Source: Mammaliicoccus sp. Dog046
GTDB taxonomy: Bacteria > Bacillota > Bacilli > Staphylococcales > Staphylococcaceae
Direction of reading: 5' to 3'
DNA: 64,000 nt
Assembly (NCBI RefSeq): GCF_034039665.1
Contig: NZ_CP120131.1
Span: forward strand, 310,001-374,000
In this document: in pieces, positions 22,327-62,231 of the stretch
Layout: every line of letters starts with the position of its first letter
Position numbering within the stretch: the stretch's first letter is position 1
Translations under genes and position numbers: made by a program
The notes under the pieces: generated by a model
The model's database searches: none
Told to the model about the DNA's origin: nothing
The model's input: only the letters and a program-made list of their open reading frames with translations

Positions 22327-22421
22327 TTTGGTGGGGTTTGGTGAGGTGTGAGAGGTTAAGAGGTATGGAGTGATGTGCGTGTAATGAGGTAAGGGCTGAG
22401 TGTTGGTGTTGCGTGGACGCT

Positions 22422-24632: not shown

Positions 24633-25235
24633 TTATGATTTTAAATAATAAAGACTAAATTCTAAATCTTTTAATAAGTGATCTTTCATGAGTTGAATTG
24701 CTTGATCAGCATCTCTTTTTTCTAGCATATCAACAATCACTTGGTGTTCTTCAATCAATCCCGGTCTCTTTTTATTTATAACAGTTTTACTAAAGAGATA
24801 AATATGACTCTTTAATTTACTGTATGTGTCAATGATGAAACTATTTTTAGTAGCGCTCATAATCTTCTGATGAAATTGATCGTTAATTTGTATGATCTCT
24901 TCATCGGTTTGTTTTTCTTCAACGTGAGTATAACTTCTTAACTCATCGATATCCTCTTGTGTAAATACGATACATGCTTTTTGTATGGCATGTGTTTCTA
25001 TTAAAATACGCATTTCGAATATATTTCTATATTCTTCAACTGTTGGAACATATACATAAGAATCTTTAATAAAATATTCGAGTTCTAATTGCTTGATGGC
25101 TTCTCGAATTGGTGTACGGCTCACATTGTATTTTTGTGCCAGCTTACTTTCAGTTATTTTTTCATTTTGAAGTAAATTACCGTTAATAATATCGTTTCTA
25201 ATTCTTTGATATAAAGTTAAATCTTCATTTGCCAT
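24633..25235 (-). CDS. GntR family (FadR/FCD subfamily) transcriptional regulator
   Basis: A 200-residue repressor. Residues about 5-65 form the winged helix (YQRIRNDIINGNLL, KLAQKYNVSRTPIREAIKQL); the remainder is an FCD ligand domain with metal-binding-type residues (EMRILIETHAIQ, INDQFHQKIM, EEHQVIVDML). Such proteins sense organic or sugar acids. It is divergent from the hydroxyacid dehydrogenase, DUF1537 kinase and GntP permease genes, and two GTATAC-type palindromes lie between them, so it most likely controls that cluster. ATG at 25235 is preferred over the GTG three codons earlier, because GAGGTGA is then 8 nt upstream. Confidence 0.9.
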   Translation of the reverse strand: MANEDLTLYQRIRNDIINGNLLQNEKITESKLAQKYNVSRTPIREAIKQLELEYFIKDSYVYVPTVEEYRNIFEMRILIETHAIQKACIVFTQEDIDELRSYTHVEEKQTDEEIIQINDQFHQKIMSATKNSFIIDTYSKLKSHIYLFSKTVINKKRPGLIEEHQVIVDMLEKRDADQAIQLMKDHLLKDLEFSLYYLKS

Positions 25236-25284
25236 TGTTGTCACCTCATTTCTTATATCTTACTATAAAAAAATTTGAAATAAA

Positions 25285-25333
25285 ATGTATACATTTACTT
25301 ATATTTGGTATACAATACGTGTAAACGTTTACA
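25285..25333 (+). promoter_or_regulatory. GntR operators and perfect cre site before the acid-sugar cluster
   Basis: ATGTATACAT (25285-25294) and TTGGTATACAA (25305-25315) are palindromic sites of the GTATAC type bound by FCD-GntR repressors. TGTAAACGTTTACA (25320-25333) is a fully palindromic cre site matching TGWNANCGNTNWCA, 15 bp before the dehydrogenase start. Dual control by the local GntR protein and CcpA is inferred. Confidence 0.78.
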
Positions 25334-25347
25334 GAAAGGAAGTTTAA

Positions 25348-26229
25348 ATGATGAAGATTGGATTTATAGGATTAGGCATTATGGGAAAGCCTATGGTAAA
25401 GAATTTATTAAGTGCGGATAAAGAAGTCTATGTTAATGACTTAAATAAAGAAGCAGAATTAGAAGTTGTTCAATTAGGTGCAAAAGCAGTATCAATAGAA
25501 GAAATGACAAGAGAAGTGGATTACATGATTACAATGTTGCCTAATGGCGCAATCGTTAAATCAGTTCTTTATAGTGGGGAACATGCAATTCTTAATCAAA
25601 CGGACTTGAAAGTGAAGTTGGTCATTGATATGAGTTCATTAACACCGAATGAATCAGTGGAAATTAATAAAGTAATGGGCGAGCGAGGTATTAAATATGT
25701 TGATGCACCTGTAAGTGGTGGAGAACCATTAGCGATTACTGGTGAATTAGCTGTCATGTTAGGTTGTGACGAATCAAGCTTAGATGAGATTAAAACAGTG
25801 TTGGCGCCAATTTCAGCTTCAGTAGTAAGAGTAGGAGATGTTGGTGCAGGCAGTGTCGTTAAATTAGCCAATCAAATTATTGTGAATACTAATATTGCTG
25901 CATTATCAGAAGCTGTTGTATTAGCGAAGAAATTTGATATTGATCTTAATGAAATGCATCAAGCCATTCAATCAGGGTTAGCGGGCTCAGCAGTAATGGA
26001 AGCGAAATTCCCTAAAATGATTGAAGAAGACTATCAACCAGGTGGTACATTGAATATTAATTTGAAAGATTTAAAGAATGTCGTATCGACTGCAGATACA
26101 GTTGGCTTAACATTGCCAGTTGTAAGTCAAATTAAAGAAATATATAAATCTGAAGTTGCAAATGGGAATGGCTTAAATGATCATTCTGGTATTATTCAGT
26201 ATTTCGAAAAAATTAATAATTTGGGGTGA
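25348..26229 (+). CDS. 3-hydroxyacid dehydrogenase family protein (GarR / LtnD-DenD like)
   Basis: A 293-residue NAD(P)-dependent beta-hydroxyacid dehydrogenase. MKIGFIGLGIMGKPMVKNLL is the Rossmann/family signature, DAPVSGGEPLA the substrate-binding segment and GSVVKLANQIIVN carries the catalytic lysine. Family members include tartronate semialdehyde reductase and the L-threonate or D-erythronate 2-dehydrogenases. Since the next gene is a DUF1537 kinase and the third a GntP permease, oxidation of a four-carbon acid sugar to a 3-oxo-tetronate is the best guess. GGAAG lies before the ATG. Confidence 0.85.
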   Translation: MMKIGFIGLGIMGKPMVKNLLSADKEVYVNDLNKEAELEVVQLGAKAVSIEEMTREVDYMITMLPNGAIVKSVLYSGEHAILNQTDLKVKLVIDMSSLTPNESVEINKVMGERGIKYVDAPVSGGEPLAITGELAVMLGCDESSLDEIKTVLAPISASVVRVGDVGAGSVVKLANQIIVNTNIAALSEAVVLAKKFDIDLNEMHQAIQSGLAGSAVMEAKFPKMIEEDYQPGGTLNINLKDLKNVVSTADTVGLTLPVVSQIKEIYKSEVANGNGLNDHSGIIQYFEKINNLG

Positions 26230-26236
26230 TGAAAAG

Positions 26237-27604
26237 GTGTTAACACAAACGCATATAAATGAAAAAAAGAACGATTCAATAGATAAACGTTTAAACGAAC
26301 TACAATATAAGATTATTGTTCTAGATGATGATCCAACAGGTACACAAACAGTTAAAGATTTACCAGTGTATACAGAATGGACGGAAGAATGGATTGAAGA
26401 TGGTTTTCTTCAATCTAACAACATGTTTTATATTCTTACCAATTCTAGAGCTTTAAATGAAGAAGAGACAAAAATTTTACACCATGAAGTAAGCGCTAAC
26501 ATACAAAGCGTATCGAAAAAATTGAATCATCCTTATTTAATTATTAGTAGAGGAGATTCGACATTACGTGGTCACTTTTACTTAGAACCTAAAGTACTTA
26601 GTGAGTCAGCAGACCAAGTATTTGATGCAGTATTTTATATTCCAGCATTCTTTGAAGGGCATCGTTATACATTTAATGGTGTGCATTACTTAAAAGAAAA
26701 TGAAGCATATATACCTGTATCTGAAAGTGAATTTGCGAATGATACAACGTTTGGCTTCAATTCTAAATCAATGAAAGCTTTTATTAATGAAAAAAGTAAA
26801 AACACAATTAATATAGAAGATATTTATCATATTTCATTAGATTTATTAAGAAAGAGAGACAAAACAGCAATCCATGCATTGTTTAATGAGTTATCTCATT
26901 TTGATCAAGTAGTTGTAGATGCGGTTAATGATGAAGATATGGATTTCTTCGTATCGTGTTTAACGTCTTATTTATTAGAGCACGACAAACGATTTATTTT
27001 TAGAACGGCGGCATCTTTTGTAAAAGCGATTTGTGAAACACCTGGAGAAATGATTAATTTAAGATCATATGAAGAAAATCAGCATGGTGGCATGATTGTT
27101 GTTGGTTCTCATGTGAAGAAATCGTCGGAACAGCTTGAGTATTTATTGAATCATACTCAGATTAAAGGAATTGAATTTGATGTGAAAGAAGTGATTAAAC
27201 CATCACTTCCGCTATATATCATTGAAATGACAGAAAAAGTTGAGAGCTACATTGAGAATGGTCAAGATGTTGTTATATATACATCTCGAGATGTGATTAG
27301 AACAGAAGATTTACAAAACAATTTAAGCATTTCAACAACCATCTCAAATAGTTTAGTGACAATCGTTTCTCATTTAAAGATTCAACCTAAATTTATTATC
27401 GCGAAAGGCGGTATAACGTCTAGTGATGTAGCAACGAAAGGGTTACAAATTAAAAAAGCAACAGTCGTTGGTCAAATTACACAAGGTGTGCCTGTGTGGT
27501 TAACAGGTAAAGAAGCGAAGTACCATCACATGCCATATGTGATATTTCCTGGCAATGTAGGTGAAGCATCAACATTAAGCGAAGTTTATGAATTAAATAA
27601 ATAA
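26237..27604 (+). CDS. DUF1537 family acid-sugar kinase (OtnK-like)
   Basis: A 455-residue kinase of the four-carbon acid sugar kinase family, known to include 3-oxo-tetronate 4-kinase (OtnK) and D-threonate kinase (DtnK). Seen motifs: IIVLDDDPTGTQTV (N-terminal substrate domain), ISRGDSTLRGHFYLEP, and in the C-terminal nucleotide domain GSHVKKSSEQL, AKGGITSSDVATKGL and FPGNVGE. Start: GTG at 26237 with GGGG about 10 nt upstream; the longer frame begins inside the preceding gene. It follows the dehydrogenase by 7 bp. A second, divergent DUF1537 kinase lies at 40919. The OtnC decarboxylase and OtnI isomerase expected downstream are not here. Confidence 0.88.
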   Translation: MLTQTHINEKKNDSIDKRLNELQYKIIVLDDDPTGTQTVKDLPVYTEWTEEWIEDGFLQSNNMFYILTNSRALNEEETKILHHEVSANIQSVSKKLNHPYLIISRGDSTLRGHFYLEPKVLSESADQVFDAVFYIPAFFEGHRYTFNGVHYLKENEAYIPVSESEFANDTTFGFNSKSMKAFINEKSKNTINIEDIYHISLDLLRKRDKTAIHALFNELSHFDQVVVDAVNDEDMDFFVSCLTSYLLEHDKRFIFRTAASFVKAICETPGEMINLRSYEENQHGGMIVVGSHVKKSSEQLEYLLNHTQIKGIEFDVKEVIKPSLPLYIIEMTEKVESYIENGQDVVIYTSRDVIRTEDLQNNLSISTTISNSLVTIVSHLKIQPKFIIAKGGITSSDVATKGLQIKKATVVGQITQGVPVWLTGKEAKYHHMPYVIFPGNVGEASTLSEVYELNK

Positions 27605-27630
27605 TATATAAATAGAGATGAGGGATGATT

Positions 27631-28992
27631 ATGTTTGGAGAATATTGGCCACTAGTGAGTGTCGTTATAGGGGTGCTTATATTACTTATACTGATTATGT
27701 ACTTAAAATTAAATACCTTTATTGCTTTAATAATGACGTCGATGATTACGGGAATCATCTTAGGTATGCCACTAGATAAGATTGTAGAAACAGTTGAAAA
27801 GGGAATGGGCGATACGTTAGGTCATATTGCGATTATCTTTGGATTGGGCTCGATTTTAGGAAAGTTATTATCTGATGGTGGTGGCGCAACAAGAATTGCT
27901 GACACATTGATCAATACATTTGGTAAAAAATATGTGACATGGGCAATGATTATTGCATCATTTATTATAGGGATTTCATTATTTTTAGAAGTCGCATTTG
28001 TATTATTAATTCCTTTAGTATTTACTTTAGCTAAAAGAATGAAAATATCGAATTTACAGGTTGGGATTCCAATGGGGACTTCAATTGCTGTGACACACGG
28101 ATTTTTACCGCCACATCCTGGACCAGTTGCGATTTCTGAAGCGGTAAATGCGAATATTGGACAAGTATTACTTTATGGGTTAATTATTGGAATACCGTTA
28201 GCAATTATTGTTGGTGGTACATTCCCTAAAATTGCGCGTGTTCTAGCACCTAGCGCATTTGAAAAAGAAGGTAATACAGCAAGTATTGGAAAGATGGCAA
28301 CAATCGATCCTAATAAATTACCAGGATTCGGCATAAGTTTGTTAACGGCTTTATTGCCAGTTATATTAATGCTGTTTGCAACAGTAGTACAATTGATTAC
28401 TGGACATGATCAAGGACCTACAAATTGGTTTGAATCTATTGTATTTTTACTAGGTTCATCAGTAAGTGCAATGCTTATAGCTGTGTTATTTGCCATTTAC
28501 TCTATGGGTATTAAACAATCTAAGAATATGACAGAAATTACGAAGACTTTTGAGGAAGCTATTGGGCCAATCGCAATGTTACTGCTTATTATTGGTGGCG
28601 GTGGAACGTTTAAACAAGTATTAATAGATGGTGGAGTTGGAGATACAATTTCAACAATCTTCCACGGTACAAATATGTCACCAATTTTCTTAGCATGGTT
28701 AGCAGCTGCATTATTAAGAGTTGCTTTAGGATCTACTACAGTTGCAGCAATTTCTTCAGTTGGTATCGTCTTACCATTACTGACATCGTCTGATGTTAAT
28801 ATTTCATTAGTCGTATTAGCGATTGGGGCAGGTAGTATATTCTGTTCACATGTGAATGATGCAGGTTTCTGGATGTTTAAAGAATATTTTGGACTAACAA
28901 TTAAAGAGACATTTTTAACATGGACATTGTTAGAATCTATCTTATCAGTACTCGGTCTAGTGTTTATTTTATTAGCTAATATGATGTTATAA
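27631..28992 (+). CDS. GntP family gluconate/acid-sugar permease
   Basis: A 453-residue protein with 12 to 14 membrane segments. TSIAVTHGFLPPHPGPVAIS, the HVNDAGFWMFKEYFG motif and the C-terminal region are diagnostic for GntP-type proton symporters, which carry gluconate, glycerate, or threonate/erythronate in similar clusters. The ATG at 27631 is chosen over 27625 because GAGGG lies 6 nt before it. It is the third gene of the GntR-controlled cluster and presumably imports the acid used by the dehydrogenase and kinase. Confidence 0.92.
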   Translation: MFGEYWPLVSVVIGVLILLILIMYLKLNTFIALIMTSMITGIILGMPLDKIVETVEKGMGDTLGHIAIIFGLGSILGKLLSDGGGATRIADTLINTFGKKYVTWAMIIASFIIGISLFLEVAFVLLIPLVFTLAKRMKISNLQVGIPMGTSIAVTHGFLPPHPGPVAISEAVNANIGQVLLYGLIIGIPLAIIVGGTFPKIARVLAPSAFEKEGNTASIGKMATIDPNKLPGFGISLLTALLPVILMLFATVVQLITGHDQGPTNWFESIVFLLGSSVSAMLIAVLFAIYSMGIKQSKNMTEITKTFEEAIGPIAMLLLIIGGGGTFKQVLIDGGVGDTISTIFHGTNMSPIFLAWLAAALLRVALGSTTVAAISSVGIVLPLLTSSDVNISLVVLAIGAGSIFCSHVNDAGFWMFKEYFGLTIKETFLTWTLLESILSVLGLVFILLANMML

Positions 28993-29068
28993 ATCAGCTG
29001 ATCTTAATGTACAAATTCATCATTTACAGGTATGATGAAATCGAAATTAAACATTAAGGAGCATGCTT

Positions 29069-29683
29069 ATGTGGGTAGATATTACACAATCATTAACAAA
29101 CCGAATTGCTAATTGGCCTGGAGACGAGGCGTTTCATTTTAAATTGGCTGAAACAAAAGATGATAACGGAGTAGTCAATATAGGTAGTATTTCGACAACA
29201 ACACATATCGGTACGCACATGGATGCACCGTTTCATTTTGATAATGAAGGAATAACGATAGATCAAATCGATGTGAACCGATTAATTGGAAAAGCAACAC
29301 TCGTTGAATGTATAGGCGAAGATATCATTACAAAAGAAATGTTAATGGACAAGGCGATTAAAGGAACAATTATTATGATAAAAACGCAAGAGCGGGCGAA
29401 CCCAGAAAGATTCCCAGAAGAAGTTCCTGCCTTAACCGAAGATGCAATCAACTATTTAGCGTCAATTGATATTAAAGTATTTGGAATTGATGTACCCTCT
29501 GTTGATAAAATAGCATCGACAACATTAGATAATCACCATACATTTCAAAAATGCGATATAATCAATATCGAAAATTTATTACTAGAAGATGTATCAGAAG
29601 GATATTATGACTTCATCGGCTTACCCCTAAAAGTCGTTGGAGCAGATGGATGTCCGATAAGAGCTGTTATATCTAGGATTTAA
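29069..29683 (+). CDS. Cyclase-family metallohydrolase (arylformamidase-like)
   Basis: A 204-residue protein of the cyclase/kynurenine formamidase (KynB) family. The metal-binding HXGTHXDXPXHF motif is present as HIGTHMDAPFHF, and GIDVPSVDK and the late HTFQ histidine region follow. Such enzymes hydrolyse N-formylkynurenine, or amide or lactone bonds in other substrates. No other tryptophan-degradation gene is in the window, so KynB activity is not assured. ATG 29069 has AAGGAG 7 nt upstream. It may have its own promoter in the 76-bp gap after the permease. Confidence 0.85.
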   Translation: MWVDITQSLTNRIANWPGDEAFHFKLAETKDDNGVVNIGSISTTTHIGTHMDAPFHFDNEGITIDQIDVNRLIGKATLVECIGEDIITKEMLMDKAIKGTIIMIKTQERANPERFPEEVPALTEDAINYLASIDIKVFGIDVPSVDKIASTTLDNHHTFQKCDIINIENLLLEDVSEGYYDFIGLPLKVVGADGCPIRAVISRI

Positions 29684-38240: not shown

Positions 38241-38568
38241 GTTGAACATTGCAAGTGGAGGTCGACAAGCAACATTGGAACGCTGAACATTGCAAGTGGA
38301 GGTCGACAAGCAACATTGGGGCGTTGAATGTTGCAAGTGAGGGTCGACAAGCAACATTGAAGCGTTGAATGTTGCAAGTGGAGGTCGACAAGCAACATTG
38401 AGCGCTTGAACATTGCAAGTGGAGGTCGACAAGCAACATTGAGGCGGTGAACATTGCAAGTGGAGGCTGACAAGCAACATTGAGCGCTTGAACATTGCAA
38501 GTGGAGGTCGACATGCAACATTGAGGCGGTGAACATTGCAAGTGGAGGTCGACATGCAACATTGAGCA
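38241..38568. repeat. Tandem array of 8 x 41-bp palindromic units (family D)
   Basis: GCAAG positions 38251, 38292, 38333, 38374, 38415, 38456, 38497 and 38538 are exactly 41 bp apart. Unit: TTGCAAGTGGAGGTCGACAA then GCAACATTGAGGCGGTGAACA, with TTGC/GCAA arms 16 nt apart and a GTCGAC palindrome inside. It is open in all minus-strand frames and so mimics Cys-rich repeat proteins; it is not coding. Confidence 0.95.
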
Positions 38569-38570
38569 TG

Positions 38571-38906
38571 GCTAACGAGATAGTTCTGGAAAACAATCAC
38601 GTTAGAAAATCTAACGAGATAGAAAGTAAAAACAATCTCGTTAGCGGGTAAATATCCGCGCAAAAGCCCGAATTAACTACAAAAAATGAGAAAATAAAGT
38701 GCTAACGAGATAGTTCTGGAAAACAATCACGTTAGAAAATCTAACGTGATAGAAAGTAAAAACAATCTCGTTAGCGGGTAAATATCCGCGCAAAAGCCCG
38801 AATTAACTATAAAAAATGAGAAAATAAAGTGCTAACGAGATAGTTCTGGAAAACAATCTCGTTAGAAAATCTAACGAGATAGAAAGTAAAAACAATCCCG
38901 TTATCT
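38571..38906. repeat. 130-bp tandem repeat, two full and one partial copy (family E)
   Basis: Copies start at 38571, 38701 and 38831. Each holds two hairpins, CTAACGAGAT-N14-ATCACGTTAG and CTAACGAGAT-N14-ATCTCGTTAG, then a GGGTAAATATCCGCGCAAAA and CCCGAATTAACTA segment. Copies one and two differ at two positions, indicating recent duplication. It begins 2 bp after the family D array. Confidence 0.93.
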
Positions 38907-38950: not shown

Positions 38951-40732
38951 TTATTCTTTTAAATATCGCCAAAGTGTTGTTCGACTTATATTTAATTGTT
39001 GTGCGGTCTTCGTTTGATTTCCGTTATTCTGTTCGAGTACATTCAATATAATTTCTCTTGTATAGTCAAATAATGTTGGTTGTGTCGACTGATTCATGGA
39101 ATGGAAAGTTGATAATTGAACCATGGATACTTTATTAATAATTTCTTCGCGGTTAATAAGATCAGACACTTGTTGTGACGATATATAATGACTGTTTGAG
39201 TTAATAACGAGTTCTTTAATTGCACTTTGGAGTTGATTAAAGTTCCCTGGCCAGTCATATGAAATGAGCGTTTGTAAAGCATTGGGGTCAAATCCAATGA
39301 TTTCTCTTCCGCATTCAATATTCACTTTATTTAAAATACGTGTTGCTAAAATACTTAATTCGCTTTTTCTTTCTCTAATTGAAGGTGCATAAATATTCGC
39401 GAAATCAAGTGTTTGAGATAATATTTGTAACTTTGAAGTATCGTTGGTTGCCTTTGAGTTATAAGTGAAAATAATTTGATTCGTTTGGATTAAATTCATT
39501 TCTTTTATTAATGATGTAAGACGCTCTAAATCTGTATTGTTCAGCTGTTCTATATTTTCAAAAAGAATAGTGTTGTTTAAATGAACTAACGGACCACTAT
39601 CTGGATTAACTAAGTATCGCCAGAGTTTATCGTTCATGAGTTTACAGTCAATAGTAATAAGATAATTCGTATTGAGTTCTTGATTGAGATAAATATGATA
39701 AGCGATATTTCTTTTAGCTGTGCCTGACTCTCCGAACACTAGAAAAGAGTGGTAATAGGGTATTGCCTTTTTTATATCTTCTGAAGTTGTGTCAGATATA
39801 AATTGTTTGAACAGTAATTGCGTAGTGAAAATTTCCGAAATTGTATCGTGATTTTGATATTTAACGCCTAATTTGCTGTTTGGTTGAGGGATACTTTGTT
39901 CATAAATAAAACAGCTAAAGAATATAGATTGATCAATGGTGAATTGTTCAATTTGAATTTTAAATGATAGGTTTTGGTAAGTTACAAAATATTGATTGGA
40001 TTGATTTACCGTTTTCTTTGAACGTAAATATTTAATTAAGAATTGCTCGAAAGAATGAGAGATATTAGTGTAATGAACATTAAATTGATGATCAAAAATG
40101 ACGACTTGCTGATTTTGACTATTAAATGAATGTTCTAGTAAAGATTTTTTATGTTGAATTTTTTTGAGATATTCTACTGTATTGATTGCTTCTGATAAAG
40201 TGAGTTTAATACTTTCAACGCCTGATGTAATGAGAATCGTATTTAATGATTTGCTGAGTGCTAATTGGTTGGTGATGACATCACATAGTATCAGTTCATA
40301 AGATTGAGATGCTAAATCATCTAAAAATTGATTTGCTTCGTTATCATTTGTAATTGTAAGTATTTCAATTCGGTACCCCATAATATCACATATTAGGTGG
40401 GCTTTTTCAGTAATACTTGCGTAACCCACGATTGCAAAATTATCCGTATAATTCTCCGTTAAATGAATAGATTTTAAGATGTCATAAATTGAAATAGATA
40501 CATCAAATACAGGAATATCAATAACTTCTTTAATAAGCTTCGCAGTTCCGCCTCTTGAAATTATGGCATCATATCCATTTTGGTACAGTTGCATAGCTAA
40601 AAGTTTACCTTCTTCTAAATCTGCCGTGAATACATCGAGTGTTATATTCGGAAATTGCTCTCCTACAGCATTCATGGATTGGTTTAATGCTTCATAAGGT
40701 GCAATACCTAATATCTTTATTTGGTTAGACAT
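38951..40732 (-). CDS. PrpR-type sigma-54-activator-like regulator with degenerate AAA+ domain
   Basis: A 593-residue regulator. Residues 1-190 are a PrpR N-terminal ligand domain (YDAIISRGGTAKLIKEVIDIPVFDVSISIYDI); a PAS-like segment follows (QQVVIFDHQFNVHYTN); then an AAA+ domain and a C-terminal Fis-type HTH (NGNQTKTAQQLNISRTTLWR). The AAA+ domain is damaged: Walker A is GESGTAKR instead of GESGTGKE, Walker B is ILFENIE instead of LFLDEI, and the GAFTGA sigma-54 contact loop is absent with a deletion there. IRERKSEL and DWPGNFNQL remain. It is divergent from the DUF1537-PdxA2 operon and probably activates it without sigma-54. ATG at 40732 has GGGGTG upstream; the longer frame starts at 40801. 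Confidence 0.85.
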   Translation of the reverse strand: MSNQIKILGIAPYEALNQSMNAVGEQFPNITLDVFTADLEEGKLLAMQLYQNGYDAIISRGGTAKLIKEVIDIPVFDVSISIYDILKSIHLTENYTDNFAIVGYASITEKAHLICDIMGYRIEILTITNDNEANQFLDDLASQSYELILCDVITNQLALSKSLNTILITSGVESIKLTLSEAINTVEYLKKIQHKKSLLEHSFNSQNQQVVIFDHQFNVHYTNISHSFEQFLIKYLRSKKTVNQSNQYFVTYQNLSFKIQIEQFTIDQSIFFSCFIYEQSIPQPNSKLGVKYQNHDTISEIFTTQLLFKQFISDTTSEDIKKAIPYYHSFLVFGESGTAKRNIAYHIYLNQELNTNYLITIDCKLMNDKLWRYLVNPDSGPLVHLNNTILFENIEQLNNTDLERLTSLIKEMNLIQTNQIIFTYNSKATNDTSKLQILSQTLDFANIYAPSIRERKSELSILATRILNKVNIECGREIIGFDPNALQTLISYDWPGNFNQLQSAIKELVINSNSHYISSQQVSDLINREEIINKVSMVQLSTFHSMNQSTQPTLFDYTREIILNVLEQNNGNQTKTAQQLNISRTTLWRYLKE

Positions 40733-40918
40733 GCACATCACCCCTTTTTGAAAACGCTTTATCGTTCTATATATGAACGATTCTATCACATGGAAAATCA
40801 ATAAACTATGAATTATTTGAAAATTGTTTAAATTTGAAACGATTATTTTAATTTTTAAGATATAAACCTGAAAAAGTAACTTTTATAATTAACACATGAC
40901 ATTAAAGGCGGTGAAATA
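40733..40918. promoter_or_regulatory. Divergent promoter region of the second acid-sugar operon
   Basis: TATAAT at 40884-40889 is a likely -10 box for the kinase operon; no good -35 is found at 17 bp, as expected for an activator-dependent SigA promoter. No GG-N10-GC sigma-54 promoter is visible. TGAAAACGCTTTAT (40749-40762) is a half-matching cre-like sequence. Confidence 0.5.
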
Positions 40919-42148
40919 ATGTTGAAGTTGTTAGTTATAGCAGATGATTTTACAGGTGCATTAGACACAGGTGTTCAATTTTCTAAACAAGGTGCCAAGA
41001 CTTTAGTATCAACTGAAGTGAATATTGATTATCAGAAGATATCTGACAGCGTTGAAGTGTTGGTAATAGATACTGAAAGTAGACATTTAGAATTTGAAGT
41101 AGCCTATAACATAATTAAAGATATTGTATTAAACGCAAAAAAAGAAAATATACCTTACATTTATAAAAAAGTAGATTCAGCTTTACGCGGAAATATTAGT
41201 GCTGAAATTAAAGCATTGGTGGACTATGGTAATCAAGAAGTTGTACCGTTCTTACCGTCATATCCAGAAATGAATCGTGTATTAGTGGATGGTCATTTGT
41301 ACATTGATCAAGTTTTAGTATCTGAGAGTGTATTTGCTGAAGATCCATACGAACCAGTCACAGAAAGTAATGTGATGAAACGGTTAAAGGAAGAAGCGCA
41401 TATTGAAGCTACATTGGTTAATGAGGAAGGACTCCCAATCGAGAAAAATGAAGTTTATGTTTTTGATGCGCGATCAAATGCAACATTAGACAAACATATG
41501 AAATGGCTAAATGATTCAGAGTCATTAAATATTTCAGTTGGTTGTGCAGGATTTGCAAACGTATTAGGGCAGCATTTGTTTCCTGATGGACGAAATAAAA
41601 ATGAAGTCTTAGATAATCCCATAGTAGTGATATGTGGAAGTATCAATCCTATAACTCAAAAACAAGTCGAATATGTTGAACAGTTAGGATATCCAAGAAT
41701 TTCATTATCAGGTAAGCAATTATTAGATATCAATCATTGGGATAGTAACAAGGGGCAAGAAGAAATAAATGCATATTTAGAATTAATAAATACCAATAAA
41801 TTGATCGCTTTCGAGACATTTAGTGATCAAACAAGTAAAGAAATCGTTAATTATCGCAAACAATATCAATTAGAAGAAAGAGAAAGTCGTTTTAGAATCG
41901 GTGCGTCACTAGGTAAATTAACAGAGTTATTATGGATGAATCATCATCAAAATACCTTCTTATTTACTGGAGGAGATACGCTATATCAGTCAATGAAGAT
42001 GCTAAATATTTCCGAAATAGAACCGATGACTGAAATCAGCTCTGGCGTTGTATTATCAACAATGGAATGGAACAAGCAACAAAGGAAAGTCATCACAAAA
42101 TCAGGTGGTTTTGGAAAAGAAACTTTGTTTACTGAATTTATCGTATAG
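40919..42148 (+). CDS. DUF1537 family four-carbon acid sugar kinase (DtnK-like)
   Basis: A 409-residue kinase. LLVIADDFTGALDTGVQFSK is the N-terminal DUF1537 signature, YKKVDSALRGNISAEI the substrate loop, VVICGSINPITQKQ starts the nucleotide domain, and FLFTGGDTLYQSM with the late KSGGFG complete it. In the D-threonate route DtnK makes D-threonate 4-phosphate for PdxA2, which is the third gene here. It shares only family-level similarity with the kinase at 26237. First gene of a seven-gene operon with gaps of 17-56 bp. Confidence 0.88.
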   Translation: MLKLLVIADDFTGALDTGVQFSKQGAKTLVSTEVNIDYQKISDSVEVLVIDTESRHLEFEVAYNIIKDIVLNAKKENIPYIYKKVDSALRGNISAEIKALVDYGNQEVVPFLPSYPEMNRVLVDGHLYIDQVLVSESVFAEDPYEPVTESNVMKRLKEEAHIEATLVNEEGLPIEKNEVYVFDARSNATLDKHMKWLNDSESLNISVGCAGFANVLGQHLFPDGRNKNEVLDNPIVVICGSINPITQKQVEYVEQLGYPRISLSGKQLLDINHWDSNKGQEEINAYLELINTNKLIAFETFSDQTSKEIVNYRKQYQLEERESRFRIGASLGKLTELLWMNHHQNTFLFTGGDTLYQSMKMLNISEIEPMTEISSGVVLSTMEWNKQQRKVITKSGGFGKETLFTEFIV

Positions 42149-42174
42149 AGAAAAAATTTAGGAGGACGGTATAA

Positions 42175-43329
42175 ATGGAGAATTATAATTTAAAAATGCC
42201 AAAGTCAGTACATGCAGGTGACCAAGCATTAGAACAATTAGAAAACATTATTAATAAAAACATCAAGAAAATTGTTATTTTCACTTCTGAAGGACTAATG
42301 AAACTGGGATTAACAACAGTGCCTATAGAAATAATCGAACGATTAGGTATAGATTACACCGTGATTACTGGTATTCCACCTGAACCAAGTTATATAGAAG
42401 CACAAGAAGCGATTGATAAGTTTAAAGAAGAAAATGCTGACTTTATTATTGCACTTGGCGGTGGGAGTATCATGGATGTCGCAAAGTTAGCGTCTCTACT
42501 TGATACAGATGAATACAGCGTTAAAGATTTATTAGATGATCCTTTACTCGCCAATAAACAAGTATCGAGTTTAATGATTCCTTCAACTGCAGGAACTGGC
42601 GCAGAAGCAACGCCGAATGCAATCGTTGGTGTACCAGAAAAAGATATCAAAATAGGTATCGTTAATCCAGAAATGATTCCTGATTATGTCATTTTAGATG
42701 GAAGAATGATTCAAAGTTTACCAACTTCAATTGCAGCTGCAACTGGTGTAGATGCATTGTGCCATGCGATTGAATGCTTCACATCAGAAAAAGCAAATCC
42801 TATAAGTGACACATTTGCATTAGAAGCATTGGATTTGATCATTAATAATATCATTGTTGCATGTAAAAACAATGATGCATTTGAAGAAAAAGGAAAAATG
42901 TTATTAGGTTCATTTTATGCAGGTGTCGCGATAACAGCATCGGGCACTACAGCAGTTCATGCACTTTCTTATCCGTTAGGTGGAAAATATCATATCGCTC
43001 ATGGTGTATCTAATGCCATGTTATTAACACCGGTTATGAAGTTTAATGAACCAGCAATCAAAGACCTATTAGCAATCGCATATGACAGAGTAGTAAAAGA
43101 AGATCAACATTTACAAACAATAGATGAAAAATCAGCCTATATTATTAAAGAACTTGAATCAATTGTAACAGAGCTTAAGATACCTACATCTTTAAAGACA
43201 TTTAATGTTCCTAAAGAAGATTTAGAAGGATTAGTTGAAGCTGGGATGAGTGTGACACGTTTACTTGTGAATAATAAACGTCCATTAACAGCTGAGGATG
43301 CACGCAATATTTATTTAGAAGTACTGTAA
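42175..43329 (+). CDS. Iron-containing alcohol dehydrogenase
   Basis: A 384-residue group III dehydrogenase. FIIALGGGSIMDVAKLASL is the NAD-binding motif, PSTAGTGAEATPNAI the nucleotide-adjacent loop, and the metal ligands lie in ATGVDALCHAIECF and TAVHALSYPLGGKYHIAHG. Relatives oxidise or reduce simple alcohols, hydroxy acids or semialdehydes. AGGAGG precedes the ATG. Within the operon it may interconvert a hydroxy and an oxo acid; the substrate is not predictable. Confidence 0.9.
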   Translation: MENYNLKMPKSVHAGDQALEQLENIINKNIKKIVIFTSEGLMKLGLTTVPIEIIERLGIDYTVITGIPPEPSYIEAQEAIDKFKEENADFIIALGGGSIMDVAKLASLLDTDEYSVKDLLDDPLLANKQVSSLMIPSTAGTGAEATPNAIVGVPEKDIKIGIVNPEMIPDYVILDGRMIQSLPTSIAAATGVDALCHAIECFTSEKANPISDTFALEALDLIINNIIVACKNNDAFEEKGKMLLGSFYAGVAITASGTTAVHALSYPLGGKYHIAHGVSNAMLLTPVMKFNEPAIKDLLAIAYDRVVKEDQHLQTIDEKSAYIIKELESIVTELKIPTSLKTFNVPKEDLEGLVEAGMSVTRLLVNNKRPLTAEDARNIYLEVL

Positions 43330-43356
43330 TTTTCAAACAGAAAGGACAATCAAATT

Positions 43357-44385
43357 ATGAAAAAAATAGGTATTACGATGGGGGATCCAGCAGGAATTGG
43401 CCCGGAAATATCAATCAAAGCTTTTAATGACAGTGCTTTATATGAAAGGTGTCATCCATTATTAGTGGGTGATCAAAGTGTAATAGAACATTATTTAATG
43501 AATCATCCAGAATTATCATTAAAAGTGAATGTCATCGATGATCCTAATGAAGGTAAGTATACATTTGGAACAATAGATTTAATCGATTTAAATCTAGTCG
43601 ATATGCGTTCGTTCCAAGTTGGAGAAGTCTCTGAAGTAGGTGGCAACGCAGCATTTCAATATGTGAAAGAAGTCATTCGTTTAGCTTTAGATAAGAAGAT
43701 TGATGCAACAGTGACGAATCCTTTAAATAAAGAAGCGATGAATTCAGCCGGTCACCATTACGCTGGTCATACTGAAATATATGCGGATTTAACAAATACA
43801 GAGAAATACACAATGATGTTAGCTGATGGAAATTTACGTGTCGTTCATGTATCAACACATGTTTCGTTAAGAGAAGCATGTGATCGTGCCACGAAACAAC
43901 GCGTACTTGATGTCATACACATTGCGAATCAAGCGTGTAAAGATTTAGGTATTGCTGAACCACGAATCGCAGTAGCAGGATTAAATCCACATTGTGGAGA
44001 AAATGGATTGTTTGGTGATGAAGAAATTAATGAAATTAATCCAGCTGTGGAAGCGGCAAAATTAGAAGGAATAGACGTCTACGGTTCTTTACCAGCAGAT
44101 ACTTTATTCTCGAAAGCAAATGGTGGAATGTATGACATCGTAGTTGCGATGTATCACGACCAAGGGCATATCCCATTAAAATTATTAGGTTTTGTTTATG
44201 ATCAGGAAAAACAAAATTGGAAAGCTGTCGAGGGCGTAAACATTACTTTGAACTTACCTATTATTCGAACATCTGTCGATCATGGTACTGCATTTGATCA
44301 AGCAGGACAATGGACGGCTAGTGAAGCAAGTTTAGTTAATGCAATTGATTATGCAATTCGATTAGCTGAAAACACAAATAAATAG
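43357..44385 (+). CDS. pdxA2: 4-phospho-D-threonate 3-dehydrogenase (PdxA2-like)
   Basis: A 342-residue PdxA-family enzyme: MGDPAGIGPEISIKAF, TNPLNKEAMNSAGHHYAGHTEIYAD (metal histidine), AGLNPHCGENG and AMYHDQGHIPLKLLGF (second metal histidines). Classic PdxA acts in vitamin B6 synthesis by the DXP route, which staphylococci do not use; PdxA2 instead oxidises and decarboxylates 4-phospho-D-threonate to DHAP. Pairing with a DUF1537 kinase two genes upstream supports the catabolic role. Confidence 0.88.
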   Translation: MKKIGITMGDPAGIGPEISIKAFNDSALYERCHPLLVGDQSVIEHYLMNHPELSLKVNVIDDPNEGKYTFGTIDLIDLNLVDMRSFQVGEVSEVGGNAAFQYVKEVIRLALDKKIDATVTNPLNKEAMNSAGHHYAGHTEIYADLTNTEKYTMMLADGNLRVVHVSTHVSLREACDRATKQRVLDVIHIANQACKDLGIAEPRIAVAGLNPHCGENGLFGDEEINEINPAVEAAKLEGIDVYGSLPADTLFSKANGGMYDIVVAMYHDQGHIPLKLLGFVYDQEKQNWKAVEGVNITLNLPIIRTSVDHGTAFDQAGQWTASEASLVNAIDYAIRLAENTNK

Positions 44386-44402
44386 TAGGAAGGTGAAATA
44401 GA

Positions 44403-45566
44403 ATGTCCAAATTAAAAGTAGTTCGTCATTCTGAACCAAATGGAACGATGTATCGTGATGATTTCTTAAATATCGATTTCGGATTGATTCCTACGGGAGG
44501 TAATCAAACTGCACATGCACCAACACTTATCGAAACAAATGATGGTGGCATGTTATGTGCATGGTTTGCTGGAAGCTTTGAAGGAAGTGGCGATATCTCT
44601 GTTGTTGTTTCGAAATTAGATGCCAGTTCTGAAACGTGGTCAACGCCCGTGAAAGTTTCACAAGGAGAAGATAGAAGTGAACAAAATCCTGCATTTTTCA
44701 GAGCAACAAACGATGAAATATGGTTGATTTATACATCTCAAGTATCTCGTCAAGAAGGAAAAGATAATATGCAATTCACATCAATCGTCATGGTGCAAAA
44801 ATCTATGGACGAAGGTCAAACATGGACGGATGCTGAAGTGCTGTTTGAAAGCGAGGGTACTTTTTCTAGACAAGCGATTCAAGTGCTTAGTAACGGACGA
44901 TGGATATTTAGTACATGGTTATGTGAAGATGCAGCTGATGGATTAACCAATGATCCAACTGAGTTTCAAATATCTGATGATAAAGGCGAATCATGGAAAG
45001 CAGTTCGAATGCCTGATAGCAGTGGACGTGTCCATGCAAATGTTATAGAAGTTGAAGCGGGACATTTAATTGCTTTTATGCGTAGTCGTTTTGCAGATTA
45101 TATATATAGAAGTGAGTCATTTGATTTCGGTGATACATGGACAATTCCTGAGGCGACTATTCTTCCGAACAACAATTCAAGTATCAGTGCAATTAAATTA
45201 CATTCAGGAGAAATTGCATTAAGTTATAACTTGAATTCAGCACCACAAGCATCATTTGGCAATATTGCATGGCCAGGTTTAAGAAATCCAGTTGCAGTGT
45301 CAGTGAGTGAAGATTTTGGAAAAACATGGCCAATTGGTCGAATCTTTGAACAAGCTGAGGGATATTTCGGAACCGAGAATAAAACAAATAACGCTCAATA
45401 TGAGTACCCAACATTGTATCAAGATAAAAATAAACGACTGCATCTTGTTTATGCATACAAAAATCGATTATGTGTAAAATATGTACGATTTAGTTTGGAA
45501 GATTTATATGGAACGAAGAGAGAATCAATCGGTCTTTATAATCCAACGTCTGGTGAAGGCGTATAA
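44403..45566 (+). CDS. Cytoplasmic Asp-box (BNR) sialidase-like protein
   Basis: A 387-residue beta-propeller with at least four Asp boxes (SXDXGXXW type): KSMDEGQTWTDAE, SDDKGESWKAV, ESFDFGDTWTIP and SEDFGKTWPIG. APTLIETNDGGMLCAWFAGS near the N-terminus and RNPVAVSVSED near the C-terminus match the BNR_2 sialidase-fold group. No signal peptide or anchor is present, so it acts inside the cell. Its position before an N-acetylneuraminate-lyase-superfamily aldolase is suggestive, but the operon as a whole looks like acid-sugar catabolism. It could be a glycosidase, lyase or lactonase; activity unproven. Confidence 0.8.
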   Translation: MSKLKVVRHSEPNGTMYRDDFLNIDFGLIPTGGNQTAHAPTLIETNDGGMLCAWFAGSFEGSGDISVVVSKLDASSETWSTPVKVSQGEDRSEQNPAFFRATNDEIWLIYTSQVSRQEGKDNMQFTSIVMVQKSMDEGQTWTDAEVLFESEGTFSRQAIQVLSNGRWIFSTWLCEDAADGLTNDPTEFQISDDKGESWKAVRMPDSSGRVHANVIEVEAGHLIAFMRSRFADYIYRSESFDFGDTWTIPEATILPNNNSSISAIKLHSGEIALSYNLNSAPQASFGNIAWPGLRNPVAVSVSEDFGKTWPIGRIFEQAEGYFGTENKTNNAQYEYPTLYQDKNKRLHLVYAYKNRLCVKYVRFSLEDLYGTKRESIGLYNPTSGEGV

Positions 45567-45622
45567 CGTTATAAATAAGTAATATTGATTTAACAAAAGA
45601 GGAAAATTAAGGAGAGATATCA

Positions 45623-46531
45623 ATGAAACCAATAGAATTAAAAGGGATTATAAGTCCAATTTTGACGCCAATGTTTGATGATGGAAGTATCAATTTAGAT
45701 GAACTTAGATTACAAGTGGACCGTATGATTGCACATGGAATTCATGGCATATTTGCATTTGGTACAAATGGAGAAGGATATATTTTATCTGCCTCAGAGA
45801 AAAGGTCAGTATTAGAAACAGTAGTAGATCAAGTGAATGGTCGAGTGCCCGTATATGCTGGAACTGGTGCAATTTCAACACTAGAGACAATTGAACAAAG
45901 TACGATGGCCAAAGAGGTAGGTGCAGACGTTCTATCTATTATTACACCAAGTTTTGCAGCCGCTAGCCAAGAAGAATTATATATTCATTTCAAAGCAGTT
46001 GCTGAATCAGTAGATATGCCAATTGTTTTATACAACATACCTGCACGAACAGGAAATTCAATTGCACCGGAAACAGTTGCAAAGTTATCTAAAATTAAAA
46101 ATATTGTTGGTGTTAAAGATTCTAGTGGTAACTTCTCCAATATTCTTGCTTATATTGAAGCTGGTAAAGAGAAAGATAATGGTGAATTTTATACTTTATC
46201 AGGGAATGATCAATTAATCACTTGGACATTAATGGCTGGAGGAACAGGTGGGATTGCAGGTTGTGCCAATGTATATCCTAAAACGATGGCCTCTATTTAC
46301 GATTTGTTTATTTCGGGAGATATAGAAGGTGCGCGTAAAACAAACGAAAGTATTCAAACATTCCGATCTTGTTTTAAATACGGAAATCCAAATACAATCG
46401 TTAAAACAGCAACAGCTTTATTGGGACATAATGTTGGGCCTTGTCGAGCACCATTTAATCAAGTACCACAAGCAGGCATTGATGCCTTGAAATCAGTACT
46501 AAACGATAATCAATCCAAAAATATGCATTAA
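45623..46531 (+). CDS. DapA/NanA superfamily aldolase (dihydrodipicolinate synthase family)
   Basis: A 302-residue (beta/alpha)8 class I aldolase. FAFGTNGEGYILSASEKRSV, AGTGAISTLETIEQS, the YNIPARTGNSI tyrosine motif and the Schiff-base lysine in IVGVKDSSGNFSNI are all seen. Members include DapA, N-acetylneuraminate lyase and 2-keto-3-deoxy acid aldolases or dehydratases. Since it sits between a sialidase-like protein and a carrier, splitting of a keto-deoxy acid into pyruvate and an aldehyde is likely. Lysine-pathway DapA is improbable in this context. Confidence 0.88.
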   Translation: MKPIELKGIISPILTPMFDDGSINLDELRLQVDRMIAHGIHGIFAFGTNGEGYILSASEKRSVLETVVDQVNGRVPVYAGTGAISTLETIEQSTMAKEVGADVLSIITPSFAAASQEELYIHFKAVAESVDMPIVLYNIPARTGNSIAPETVAKLSKIKNIVGVKDSSGNFSNILAYIEAGKEKDNGEFYTLSGNDQLITWTLMAGGTGGIAGCANVYPKTMASIYDLFISGDIEGARKTNESIQTFRSCFKYGNPNTIVKTATALLGHNVGPCRAPFNQVPQAGIDALKSVLNDNQSKNMH

Positions 46532-46570
46532 TTCGCTGGGGTTTAAGGGATTAAAAGTGGAGGGGATAGT

Positions 46571-47857
46571 ATGACTGTAGAAATGATTATTACATTAGCA
46601 ATTACAGTAGTCATGATTGTACTAATAATGATAGATAAAATACCTTTCGGTGCAGCGCCACTATTTGCGTGTTTACTGTTAGTTATATTTGGAATTACGG
46701 ATATTAAAGGGGCATTTGCAGGATTTTCGAATTCAACTGTTATCATGTTAGCAGAATTTATGGCAATTATAGCGGCGTTACAGAAGACGAATTTTATTAC
46801 AGCATTTAAAAATGCGATGTTTTCAATGGCAGATAAAGGTGGGTTTAAATCTTATTTGCTCATTATCTTGATTGTTATGTTGGGATGTAGTCTATTTGGT
46901 ACAGGGTCAACAGCATATTATGTGTTAACAATAGGTTTGTTATCTACGTTACCTTATACAAAGAAATTACCACCATCAAAAGTGATTATGACAGCTGGAT
47001 TTGCAGCTAATCATCCACTCATACCATTCAATACTGCGTTACAATATGGTATTGTCATAGCTGTTTTAAACTCAGTAGGTGAATCAATTAATGTTTCGGT
47101 ATTTAAGTTTGCGATTGTAAATTTATTTTTAACGATTGGTTTTCTGGTAAATTGTATTATTCAATATAAATTCTTACCAGATCATCCAATTGCAGATACA
47201 AGTACAAAGGATATTAAATTACAAGAAAATGAAAGCGTTTCCGATAAGATGCCGAAATGGAAAGAATACATCACATACGGTGCGTTTGCCTTCGCTGTAG
47301 TAGGAATGTTGTTACAAAGTAAAATTGGTGATGCAGGGTATGCGATGGCAGGGCTATCAGTAGCAGTGATACTTATGTTTGGTATTTTGAGCTTTACAGA
47401 AATTAGAGATGCATTAAGTGCACCAATTATTTTACTTACTGCAGGTGTGATAGGCGTTGCTAATGCACTGGGAAGTACAGGATTAACGAAATTAGTAGGG
47501 ACATCTGTTGCAGATTTGCTAGGTAATAATGTAAATGCATTTGTAATGATATTGGTGTTCTGTATTTTGACAAGTTTATTAGCGACGTTGACTGGTTCAA
47601 CAATAGGGACCGTATATGTCATAGCACCTTTAGCAATAACAATTTGTACAGGTTTAGGATTAGATCCAACAGCAGCTGTTTGCGCGATTGTCATTTCGGG
47701 ATGGTGTGGTCATTTCTTACCAATTGATGGTATGCCAGCGATGGTATTAGGATATGGTAAATATACTGCCGCCCAATTTTGGAAATTCACTATTCCTCAA
47801 TATTTTATAAGACTTGTATTTTTAACAGCAGGTGCGCTATTAATGTTCCCTGTGTAA
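46571..47857 (+). CDS. SLC13/ion-transporter superfamily carboxylate carrier
   Basis: A 428-residue membrane protein with about 11-12 segments. IPFGAAPLFACLLLVIFGIT, the re-entrant-type loops LFGTGSTAYYVLTIG and LATLTGSTIGTVYVIAP, and the pseudo-twofold repeat fit the DASS/IT superfamily that imports di- or tricarboxylates and other organic anions. It is the likely uptake system for the operon substrate. GGAGGGGA lies before the ATG. Confidence 0.82.
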   Translation: MTVEMIITLAITVVMIVLIMIDKIPFGAAPLFACLLLVIFGITDIKGAFAGFSNSTVIMLAEFMAIIAALQKTNFITAFKNAMFSMADKGGFKSYLLIILIVMLGCSLFGTGSTAYYVLTIGLLSTLPYTKKLPPSKVIMTAGFAANHPLIPFNTALQYGIVIAVLNSVGESINVSVFKFAIVNLFLTIGFLVNCIIQYKFLPDHPIADTSTKDIKLQENESVSDKMPKWKEYITYGAFAFAVVGMLLQSKIGDAGYAMAGLSVAVILMFGILSFTEIRDALSAPIILLTAGVIGVANALGSTGLTKLVGTSVADLLGNNVNAFVMILVFCILTSLLATLTGSTIGTVYVIAPLAITICTGLGLDPTAAVCAIVISGWCGHFLPIDGMPAMVLGYGKYTAAQFWKFTIPQYFIRLVFLTAGALLMFPV

Positions 47858-47878
47858 CAGATGACTGGAGATGAAAGT

Positions 47879-48226
47879 ATGAGCAATCAATTTGAACTTG
47901 AGCATATTGGAATTAATACTGAAAACGAAAATGAAGCTTTAGCACTTGCTTCACAATTAAGCTTTATTTTTAATTTAGAATCAAGGCATGGTCAGAAATC
48001 AGAATTTGCAGGAAAATATTTTGAATGTATGAAAGCACCTTATTTAGGTAAGCATGGGCATATAGCAATGAAGACAGAAGATTTAGAAGCGGCGGTTGAA
48101 GAGTTGAAAGAAAAGGGAATTAAATTTAATTCAAGCACTGCTGCTTACGATGATCAAGAGAAATTAAAAAATATATATTTAGAAGAAGAATATGGAGGAT
48201 TTGCGATTCATATTTTGCAAAAATAA
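47879..48226 (+). CDS. VOC-fold small protein at the end of the acid-sugar operon
   Basis: A 115-residue single-domain protein. LEHIGINTENENEALALASQ, FEC-containing KYFECMKAPYLGKHGHIAMKTEDLEAAVEEL and GGFAIHILQK show the paired beta-alpha-beta-beta-beta pattern of vicinal oxygen chelate proteins. It resembles small VOC proteins found next to keto-deoxy-acid aldolase genes, possibly isomerases or epimerases of the pathway; this is inference. ATG 47879 is chosen with GGAG 8 nt upstream, rather than 47861. Confidence 0.72.
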   Translation: MSNQFELEHIGINTENENEALALASQLSFIFNLESRHGQKSEFAGKYFECMKAPYLGKHGHIAMKTEDLEAAVEELKEKGIKFNSSTAAYDDQEKLKNIYLEEEYGGFAIHILQK

Positions 48227-48235
48227 TTATTATAA

Positions 48236-48306
48236 GTGGCTGGGACATAATGTAATGTCTCAGTCACTTTTAATATCTTGGCAGTAAATTTCTGTCCCGC
48301 TCCCTT
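48236..48306. repeat. Shortened staphylococcal intergenic element
   Basis: GTGGCTGGGACATAATGTAA, TGTCTCAGTCAC and the CTTGGCAGTA segment are joined directly to TTTCTGTCCCGCTCCC. Compared with 29785-29949, the central roughly 100 bp (nested stem and GGGGCGGGACT) is missing. It also acts as terminator of the operon. Confidence 0.75.
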
Positions 48307-50247: not shown

Positions 50248-50263
50248 ATATTTCAATAGGAAT

Positions 50264-50583
50264 GATTGCAAGAGTGGGGAAACGTGCAACGATTGAGGTG
50301 AAATGATTGCAAGACTCACGAAACGTGCAACGATTGAGGTGAAATGATTGCAAGACTTGGGAAACGTGCAACGATTGAGGTGAAATGATTGCAAGACTGG
50401 GGAAACGTGCAACGATTGAGGTGAAATGATTGCAAGACTCGAGAAACGTGCAACGATCGGGGTGGAATGATTGCAAGACTCGGGAAACGTGCAACGATCG
50501 GGGCAAAATGATTGCAAGACTCACGAAACGTGCAACGATCGGGGCAAAATGATTGCAAGACTCACGAAATGTGCAACGAAAAA
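50264..50583. repeat. Tandem array of 8 x 41-bp palindromic units (family F)
   Basis: GATTGC positions 50264, 50305, 50346, 50387, 50428, 50469, 50510 and 50551 are exactly 41 bp apart. Unit: TTGCAAGACTCACGAAACGT then GCAACGATTGAGGTGAAATGA. The TTGC/GCAA arms are 16 nt apart, the same geometry and period as family D. A C-rich stretch (about 50620-50725: TCCTCCTCCGCCACCCTC) follows. Confidence 0.95.
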
Positions 50584-61985: not shown

Positions 61986-62067
61986 TGCAATTCCCCTTTA
62001 TACTTTTCTTTTATTTTAGCAAATTCTAATTTTATTAAAAGTAATATGAGGCGTGAGGTGAGGGGGA

Positions 62068-62231
62068 GTCGTAGATTAACTTCCGAGTTAAGCGACAAGA
62101 TACCCAAAGTCGTAGATTAACTTTCGAATTAAGCGACGAGATCGCCTAAGTCGTAGATTAACTTCTGAATTAAGCGACGAGATGACTGAAGTCGTAGATT
62201 AACTTCTGAATTAAGCGACGATCTCTAAAAT
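62068..62231. repeat. Four 41-bp repeat units (type A)
   Basis: GTCGTAG at 62068, 62109, 62150 and 62191, exactly 41 bp apart, in a divergent promoter region upstream of the cold-shock gene. GTGAGGTGAGGGGG lies directly left and TTCACCCTCCCCACT directly right. The rest of this 475-bp gap is the cspA promoter and leader. Confidence 0.93.

Follow-up and report, generated by a model that had tools for sequence, protein, structure and literature searches.

A seven-gene operon of Mammaliicoccus sp. Dog046 as a candidate route for the breakdown of a seven-carbon 2-keto-3-deoxy dicarboxylic sugar acid

The D-threonate pathway, in which the kinase DtnK acts together with PdxA2, was reportedly described by Zhang et al. 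in 2016. The catabolism of sialic acids (nan) uses a carrier, a sialidase-fold protein, an anomerase, a lyase of the dihydrodipicolinate synthase (DHDPS) superfamily and a kinase. Elements of both were found in an operon within a 64,000-nucleotide stretch of DNA from Mammaliicoccus sp. Dog046 (contig NZ_CP120131.1, positions 310,001 to 374,000, forward strand), referred to here as the window. The operon (40919-48226) shares with the D-threonate pathway the kinase and PdxA2 families and the expected finish from D-threonate to dihydroxyacetone phosphate (DHAP), but adds an aldolase, an iron-dependent alcohol dehydrogenase (Fe-ADH), a sialidase-fold propeller protein, a VOC protein and an SLC13 carrier, and D-threonate would be an intermediate rather than the imported compound. 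It departs from the nan system in the active site of the propeller, an arginine in the aldolase, the predicted finish through a four-carbon (C4) acid, and the lack of nanE and nanK. A cluster on pSymB of Sinorhizobium meliloti was reportedly treated by Thiaville et al. in 2016. The glnS-nagE region of extraintestinal pathogenic and adherent-invasive Escherichia coli strains has been described, with the similar S. meliloti cluster mentioned and no pathway assigned (PMC12928451). Both share five core genes with the window operon (kinase, Fe-ADH, PdxA2, propeller and aldolase); the E. coli region (GR 6) also shares the SLC13 carrier, but has YhcH and TerC where the window has the VOC protein.

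All seven open reading frames lie on the + strand with intergenic gaps of 26, 27, 17, 56, 39 and 3 nucleotides, and with a divergent regulator on one side and an intrinsic terminator hairpin 3' of the last gene they form a real operon, conserved as a set elsewhere, as the initial annotation of a seven-gene catabolic operon had it. Pfam and NCBIfam models, with which the protein families were assigned, agreed with its family names (DUF1537 kinase, Fe-ADH, PdxA, BNR_2, DHDPS, CitMHS/DASS and VOC; Table 1).

We propose, with a probability of roughly 0.5, that the operon encodes a complete pathway for breaking down a seven-carbon (C7) dicarboxylic sugar acid of the 2-keto-3-deoxy type, which is most likely 3-deoxy-D-lyxo-2-heptulosarate (Dha), either free or in a small conjugate. 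Dha occurs in side chain D of the pectin rhamnogalacturonan II (RG-II). The SLC13-like carrier would take up Dha or its conjugate, probably as a Ca2+ chelate, the propeller would release Dha from the conjugate in the cytosol, and ring opening would fall to the VOC protein, whose place YhcH takes in sister clusters. The DapA-type aldolase would then split the C3-C4 bond to give pyruvate and OHC-CHOH-CHOH-COOH, the Fe-ADH would reduce this aldehyde to D-threonate, and the kinase and PdxA2 would convert D-threonate to D-threonate-4-phosphate and this to DHAP and CO2. The last two steps are taken from known families; the five before them, and the substrate, are what we infer from the observed gene set, operon structure, conservation, and patterns of fold, residues and gene replacement. 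On these grounds the order of the enzymes appears well supported and Dha as the substrate moderately so. The genes form one functional unit, and the earlier suggestion that an acid larger than C4 is imported and split by the aldolase, its C4 part being finished by the kinase and PdxA2, is probably right; where that suggestion had left substrate and order unassigned, Dha and an order with the Fe-ADH between aldolase and kinase are now proposed.

A scan of genome contigs with the propeller profile found 80 loci. Together with plasmid loci, 61 were longer than 15 kb, and as these were chosen through the propeller, the counts among them are conditional on it: Fe-ADH in 60, DapA-type aldolase and PdxA in 59 each, kinase in 58, PrpR-type regulator in 49, SLC13 carrier in 37 and VOC protein in 31. 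The five-gene module spans Bacilli, Clostridia and Proteobacteria and is kept despite widely varying gene order, and is therefore probably held together by function. Its recurrence in dozens of unrelated genomes, in shuffled orders, is far beyond chance. The module occurs in bacteria of plants, the gut, the rumen and soil, among them rhizobia, Agrobacterium, Pantoea, gut Clostridia, enterococci and streptococci, and annotated proteobacterial clusters carry the same gene set. In E. coli Nissle 1917 (L146), a DeoR regulator, D-threonate-4-phosphate dehydrogenase, dtnK, Fe-ADH, a DapA family protein, TerC, propeller, YhcH and SLC13 carrier lie between glnS and nagE. No sign was found that the middle genes belong to unrelated pathways in other genomes, the other core genes being present in 58 to 60 of the 61 loci and in the Nissle cluster, and the earlier idea of a single route came through this survey.

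The best model for the kinase was the D-threonate kinase NF047819, and its E. coli counterpart is annotated dtnK. Adjoining it is a PdxA2 paralogue of the PRK03743/PRK03371 D-threonate-4-phosphate dehydrogenase type, with a D-threonate 4-phosphate dehydrogenase (6e85) as nearest solved relative. The aldolase had been called NanA/DapA-type, of which the DapA part held (218 bits, with Arg142 present) and the sialic acid part did not (133-151 bits to NanA models, beside a propeller that lacks key sialidase residues). It keeps Lys165, Tyr137, Thr48 and Arg142 at DHDPS positions, with Phe111 at the Tyr107 position and Asn at the Thr45 position; owing to Phe111, the Thr44-Tyr107-Tyr133 triad of DHDPS is incomplete. 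Among 73 operon aldolases, at least 93% have the Schiff-base Lys165 and the carboxylate-binding Arg142. The DHDPS arginine equivalent to Arg142 binds the carboxylate of aspartate semialdehyde, and the operon enzyme would share with DHDPS, besides the fold and these residues, the chemistry of pyruvate and a C4 aldehyde-acid, differing in the two substitutions and in its expected cleavage direction on a dihydroxy compound. Three further DHDPS-family genes lie elsewhere in the same genome, so the operon copy need not serve lysine synthesis.

A pyruvate aldolase of the DapA family gives a C4 acid solely from a 1,7-diacid. If a C4 acid is the product, the substrate would therefore be such a diacid, with which the retention of Arg142 agrees. 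The C4 product would be an aldehyde-acid, and this explains the Fe-ADH, proposed as the link that joins aldolase to kinase by reduction to a tetronate. Working back from a D-threonate-type kinase and PdxA2, the diacid needs, in Fischer projection with C1 at the top, a hydroxyl group on the left at C5 and on the right at C6; D-lyxo Dha has both, and therefore fits as a natural compound. By stereochemistry, Dha gives pyruvate and D-threuronate, the latter leading through D-threonate and D-threonate-4-phosphate to DHAP and CO2.

In E. coli, the metalloprotein YhcH works as an anomerase and provides the aldolase with N-acetylneuraminic acid (Neu5Ac) and ketodeoxynonulosonic acid (KDN) in their open form (PMC8141875). 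The window protein belongs to the VOC superfamily and has no DUF386 (YhcH/YjgK/YiaL) sequence. One related cluster had both YhcH and VOC, 17 had YhcH only, 32 had VOC only and 15 had neither (p = 4e-6; the Fisher tests given here and below ignore phylogeny and are descriptive). In the sole cluster with both, YhcH lay 7 kb away on the opposite strand, and swaps were seen within Enterococcus and within Streptococcus. The VOC proteins conserve His15, Glu55, His67 and Glu110, the pattern of a metal site. The VOC protein is probably a stand-in anomerase that functionally replaces YhcH, whose anomerase activity is on cyclic ketodeoxy acids, and this points to a substrate of that kind.

SERCA-type Ca2+ ATPases, Ca/Na antiporters or TerC were present in 20 of the 39 clusters with an SLC13 carrier versus 0 of the 26 with TRAP, SSS, ABC or other carriers. 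Because these unrelated exporter families pair with the SLC13 carrier alone, the pattern suggests import of a chelate with Ca2+ or another divalent metal, as is known for some CitMHS carriers. The SLC13 carrier of the E. coli cluster is 53% identical to that of the window. Large cytosolic esterases of feruloyl-esterase/polyhydroxybutyrate-depolymerase type were observed in some related clusters (L011:3718-5559, L045:4999-6780 and L079:1444-6606), a hint that part of the substrate may arrive esterified.

The propeller has the N-terminus MSKLKVVRHSEPNG with no signal peptide, as first noted. Its AlphaFold2 model (pLDDT 90) matched sialidases throughout, with Z up to 36.7 and 13-21% identity over about 310-330 residues, consistent with the six-bladed sialidase propeller of glycoside hydrolase family GH33. 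Compared with a true sialidase of a related bacterium (L004), the arginine of the FRIP motif is His38 in all aligned members, the acid/base Asp is Glu60 and the nucleophile-partner Glu is His211, with Tyr335 and Arg227 retained; the three-arginine cluster and the Tyr/Glu pair are thus broken, and the third arginine is probably Arg294, where the alignment is not secure. His38, Glu60, His211, Tyr335 and Arg227 are invariant from Staphylococcaceae to Rhizobium. Because three of the sialidase residues are exchanged, in a pattern invariant across members, the protein is, judged by these residues, not an ordinary exo-sialidase, and its active site would have been rebuilt on the sialidase fold.

What reaction it catalyzes is the least certain step of the pathway. 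We tentatively prefer a ketosidase cleaving a small Dha conjugate, which agrees with the invariance of Tyr335 and Arg227, both part of the ketosidase machinery. In a close rival reading, though by itself unlikely, the propeller would act on an internal anhydro or lactone form, as a lactonase or by opening or hydrating the ring, with the other steps unchanged. The small-acid carriers (SLC13, TRAP, SSS and 2HCT) suggest a monomeric substrate, sialidase residues are exchanged (His38, Glu60 and His211), and intramolecular trans-sialidases and NanC are among the nearest solved sequences; YhcH and the VOC protein, however, are already candidates for ring opening. In Lachnospirales clusters, fusions of SUMF1/FGE-like, BNR_2 and MORN domains adjoin PdxA in the place of the propeller (L143:6339-8717 and L142:9396-11915); in the Lachnospirales genomes G199 and G220, such a fusion stands where the propeller would be, with PdxA and DapA on either side.

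The stereochemical prediction of Dha preceded the discovery of a gene that bears on it. In one cluster (L089), the propeller gene is immediately followed by a gene for a BT_1020 relative that lacks a signal peptide (PF24067, E = 4e-72; 376 bits to 5mqr residues 19-583). Ndeh et al. in 2017 reportedly found GH142 and GH143 in BT_1020, a protein of the Bacteroides RG-II system, with GH143 as a Dha hydrolase. The families GH137-139, GH142 and GH143 have been linked to RG-II debranching (PMC7922503). BT_1020 has no sequence similarity to the operon propeller and no gene of its type stands in the window operon; the likeness would lie in a probable common substrate, Dha. Operon-type DapA (at least 380 bits) was found in 14 of 295 Lachnospirales genomes, and the propeller in seven, all among those 14. 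Strong GH143-like matches (PF24067) occurred in nine of the 295. Operon-type DapA was present in 5/9 of these versus 9/286 others (p = 1.3e-5, or 1.5e-4 without the genome of L089), and PdxA in 7/9 versus 49/286 (p = 1.7e-4). Three genomes (G199, G220 and G314) had relatives of the kinase, PdxA and DapA in clusters, the first two with Fe-ADH as well. GH143-like genes and the propeller shared one genome among the nine and seven, too few to inform, and the association was seen with operon-type DapA and PdxA only. A DapA beside a BT_1020-like gene at another locus (L120) is without the arginine and was left out of the support.

Several points weigh against the Dha route. The operon kinase falls short of the cut-off of its D-threonate kinase model (206 versus 450 bits). 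The 5mqr entry is named beta-L-arabinobiosidase; Dha hydrolysis is reportedly the activity of GH143, putatively the N-terminal domain of BT_1020. The Lachnospirales association rests on few lineages, so that its significance is exaggerated by the p values, and the BT_1020-like genes there mostly lie among unrelated genes (ATP synthase, GH130 and GH125). Among 50 cluster-bearing genomes, GH143-like genes were found in two, with no enrichment over background. A search of the window genome with the P-type ATPase C-terminal family found no P-type Ca2+ ATPase. The esterases of some clusters fall outside the proposed route, and a free small acid would give no settled reason for a propeller in every cluster.

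Some of these points suit the same enzyme logic applied to another C7 acid, such as a stereoisomer or an esterified or conjugated 2-keto-3-deoxy-heptarate of non-RG-II origin. The genomic evidence for the step order applies to it equally, and the esterases and a 2HCT/CitS-type carrier in one related cluster would fit some other organic acid. We consider it rather improbable, given the BT_1020/GH143 links and Dha being the natural compound of this type that is known.

Plain use of D-threonate, with the remaining genes as unrelated passengers, would account for the kinase and PdxA2 families, but is very improbable because aldolase, Fe-ADH and propeller go with this pair in nearly every related locus, in any gene order. 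Still more improbable is intracellular catabolism of sialic acid (Neu5Ac or KDN) or 3-deoxy-D-manno-octulosonic acid (Kdo) by a true sialidase and a NanA-type lyase. The sialidase fold, the YhcH of sister clusters and the aldolase superfamily recall such a route, which was rejected: the arginine triad and the Tyr/Glu pair are broken, the aldolase has the DapA-type arginine and the higher DapA score, no NanE, NanK or NagA genes stand in the operon, and C6 or C5 sugar products, in place of a C4 acid, would leave the kinase and PdxA2 without a role. Least probable is salvage of vitamin B6 from 4-hydroxythreonine, as reported for some DUF1537/PdxA2 pairs; PdxA2 is capable of the PdxA reaction (PMC9997740), but the operon has a carrier, an aldolase and a reductase of its own, which suggests that it serves carbon use, and it has no other B6 gene.

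The propeller gene was found in 1043 of 5426 complete E. coli genomes (19%; blastn with a Klebsiella gene as query), annotated as a sialidase; blastn of E. coli with the Brenneria propeller gene gave no match. Among 108 genomes of the same family as the window, it was found in the window genome alone, apart from a remote true sialidase in one other. The nearest relatives are in Enterococcus (79% identity), where three loci (L012, L018 and L021) have the window order of kinase, Fe-ADH, PdxA2, propeller, DapA, SLC13 and VOC. The natural reading of this lone occurrence beside Enterococcus relatives is acquisition by horizontal transfer. More broadly, and tentatively, we suggest that gene transfer has spread a Dha pathway, patterned on the use of sialic acids, among rhizobia, Firmicutes of the gut and roughly one in five E. 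coli. In such a pathway the acid would be imported as a Ca2+ chelate, the sialidase-fold enzyme in the cytosol would have a novel active site, the VOC protein would represent a new type of anomerase, the lyase would be of DapA type, and the last steps would run through D-threonate. The enzyme families are known, and their combination into one pathway is probably new: literature searches for the same gene combination or for a pathway of Dha catabolism found nothing beyond PMC12928451, and although the five-gene module is widespread, no substrate assignment was found in the literature searched. If correct, the proposal would show bacterial use of one of the rarest pectin sugars and give functions to a VOC family and to the COG4692 propellers, whose present annotation is exo-alpha-sialidase.

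Table 1. Features of the operon and its surroundings, in window coordinates.
Feature	Position	Strand	Evidence
DUF1537 kinase, predicted D-threonate kinase (DtnK-like)	40919..42148	+	SBD_N/NBD_C; NF047819 206 bits
Fe-dependent alcohol dehydrogenase, predicted C4 aldehyde-acid reductase	42175..43329	+	Fe-ADH; top NCBIfam model lactaldehyde reductase
PdxA2, predicted decarboxylating D-threonate-4-phosphate dehydrogenase	43357..44385	+	PF04166 1e-107; 6e85
Sialidase-fold Asp-box propeller (BNR_2), cytosolic, predicted to free ketodeoxy acid from small conjugate	44403..45566	+	BNR_2 3.5e-55
DapA-type pyruvate aldolase	45623..46531	+	PF00701 1.5e-71; residue pattern
SLC13/CitMHS-like carrier	46571..47857	+	CitMHS 1.4e-22, DASS
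VOC-fold metalloprotein, predicted stand-in for YhcH anomerase	47861..48226	+	VOC/glyoxalase models
Intrinsic terminator hairpin	48235..48272 (about)	+	fold -25.2 kcal/mol, z -8.0
PrpR_N/HTH_8 regulator, divergent	38951..40801	-	Pfam PrpR_N 3.4e-44, AAA_lid_14, HTH_8

The divergent regulator combines a PrpR_N sensor, a degenerate AAA domain and a Fis-type helix-turn-helix. Its sigma-54-activator domain has the Walker A sequence GESGTAKRN and no GAFTGA motif, and the protein therefore probably acts without sigma-54. Between the regulator gene and a 41-bp array lies a 130-bp tandem repeat (38571-38903; 2.6 copies, 97% matches). Intergenic tandem arrays with units of 39-41 bp were seen at 2098-2880, 22421-22971, 38241-38566, 50261-50579 and 62067-62221, the operon lying between two of them. 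A second DUF1537 cluster (24633-29683), 14 kb upstream, encodes a GntR regulator, an HIBADH/LtnD-like dehydrogenase, a kinase, a GntP-type permease and a cyclase-family protein, and looks like a separate route for a four-carbon acid.

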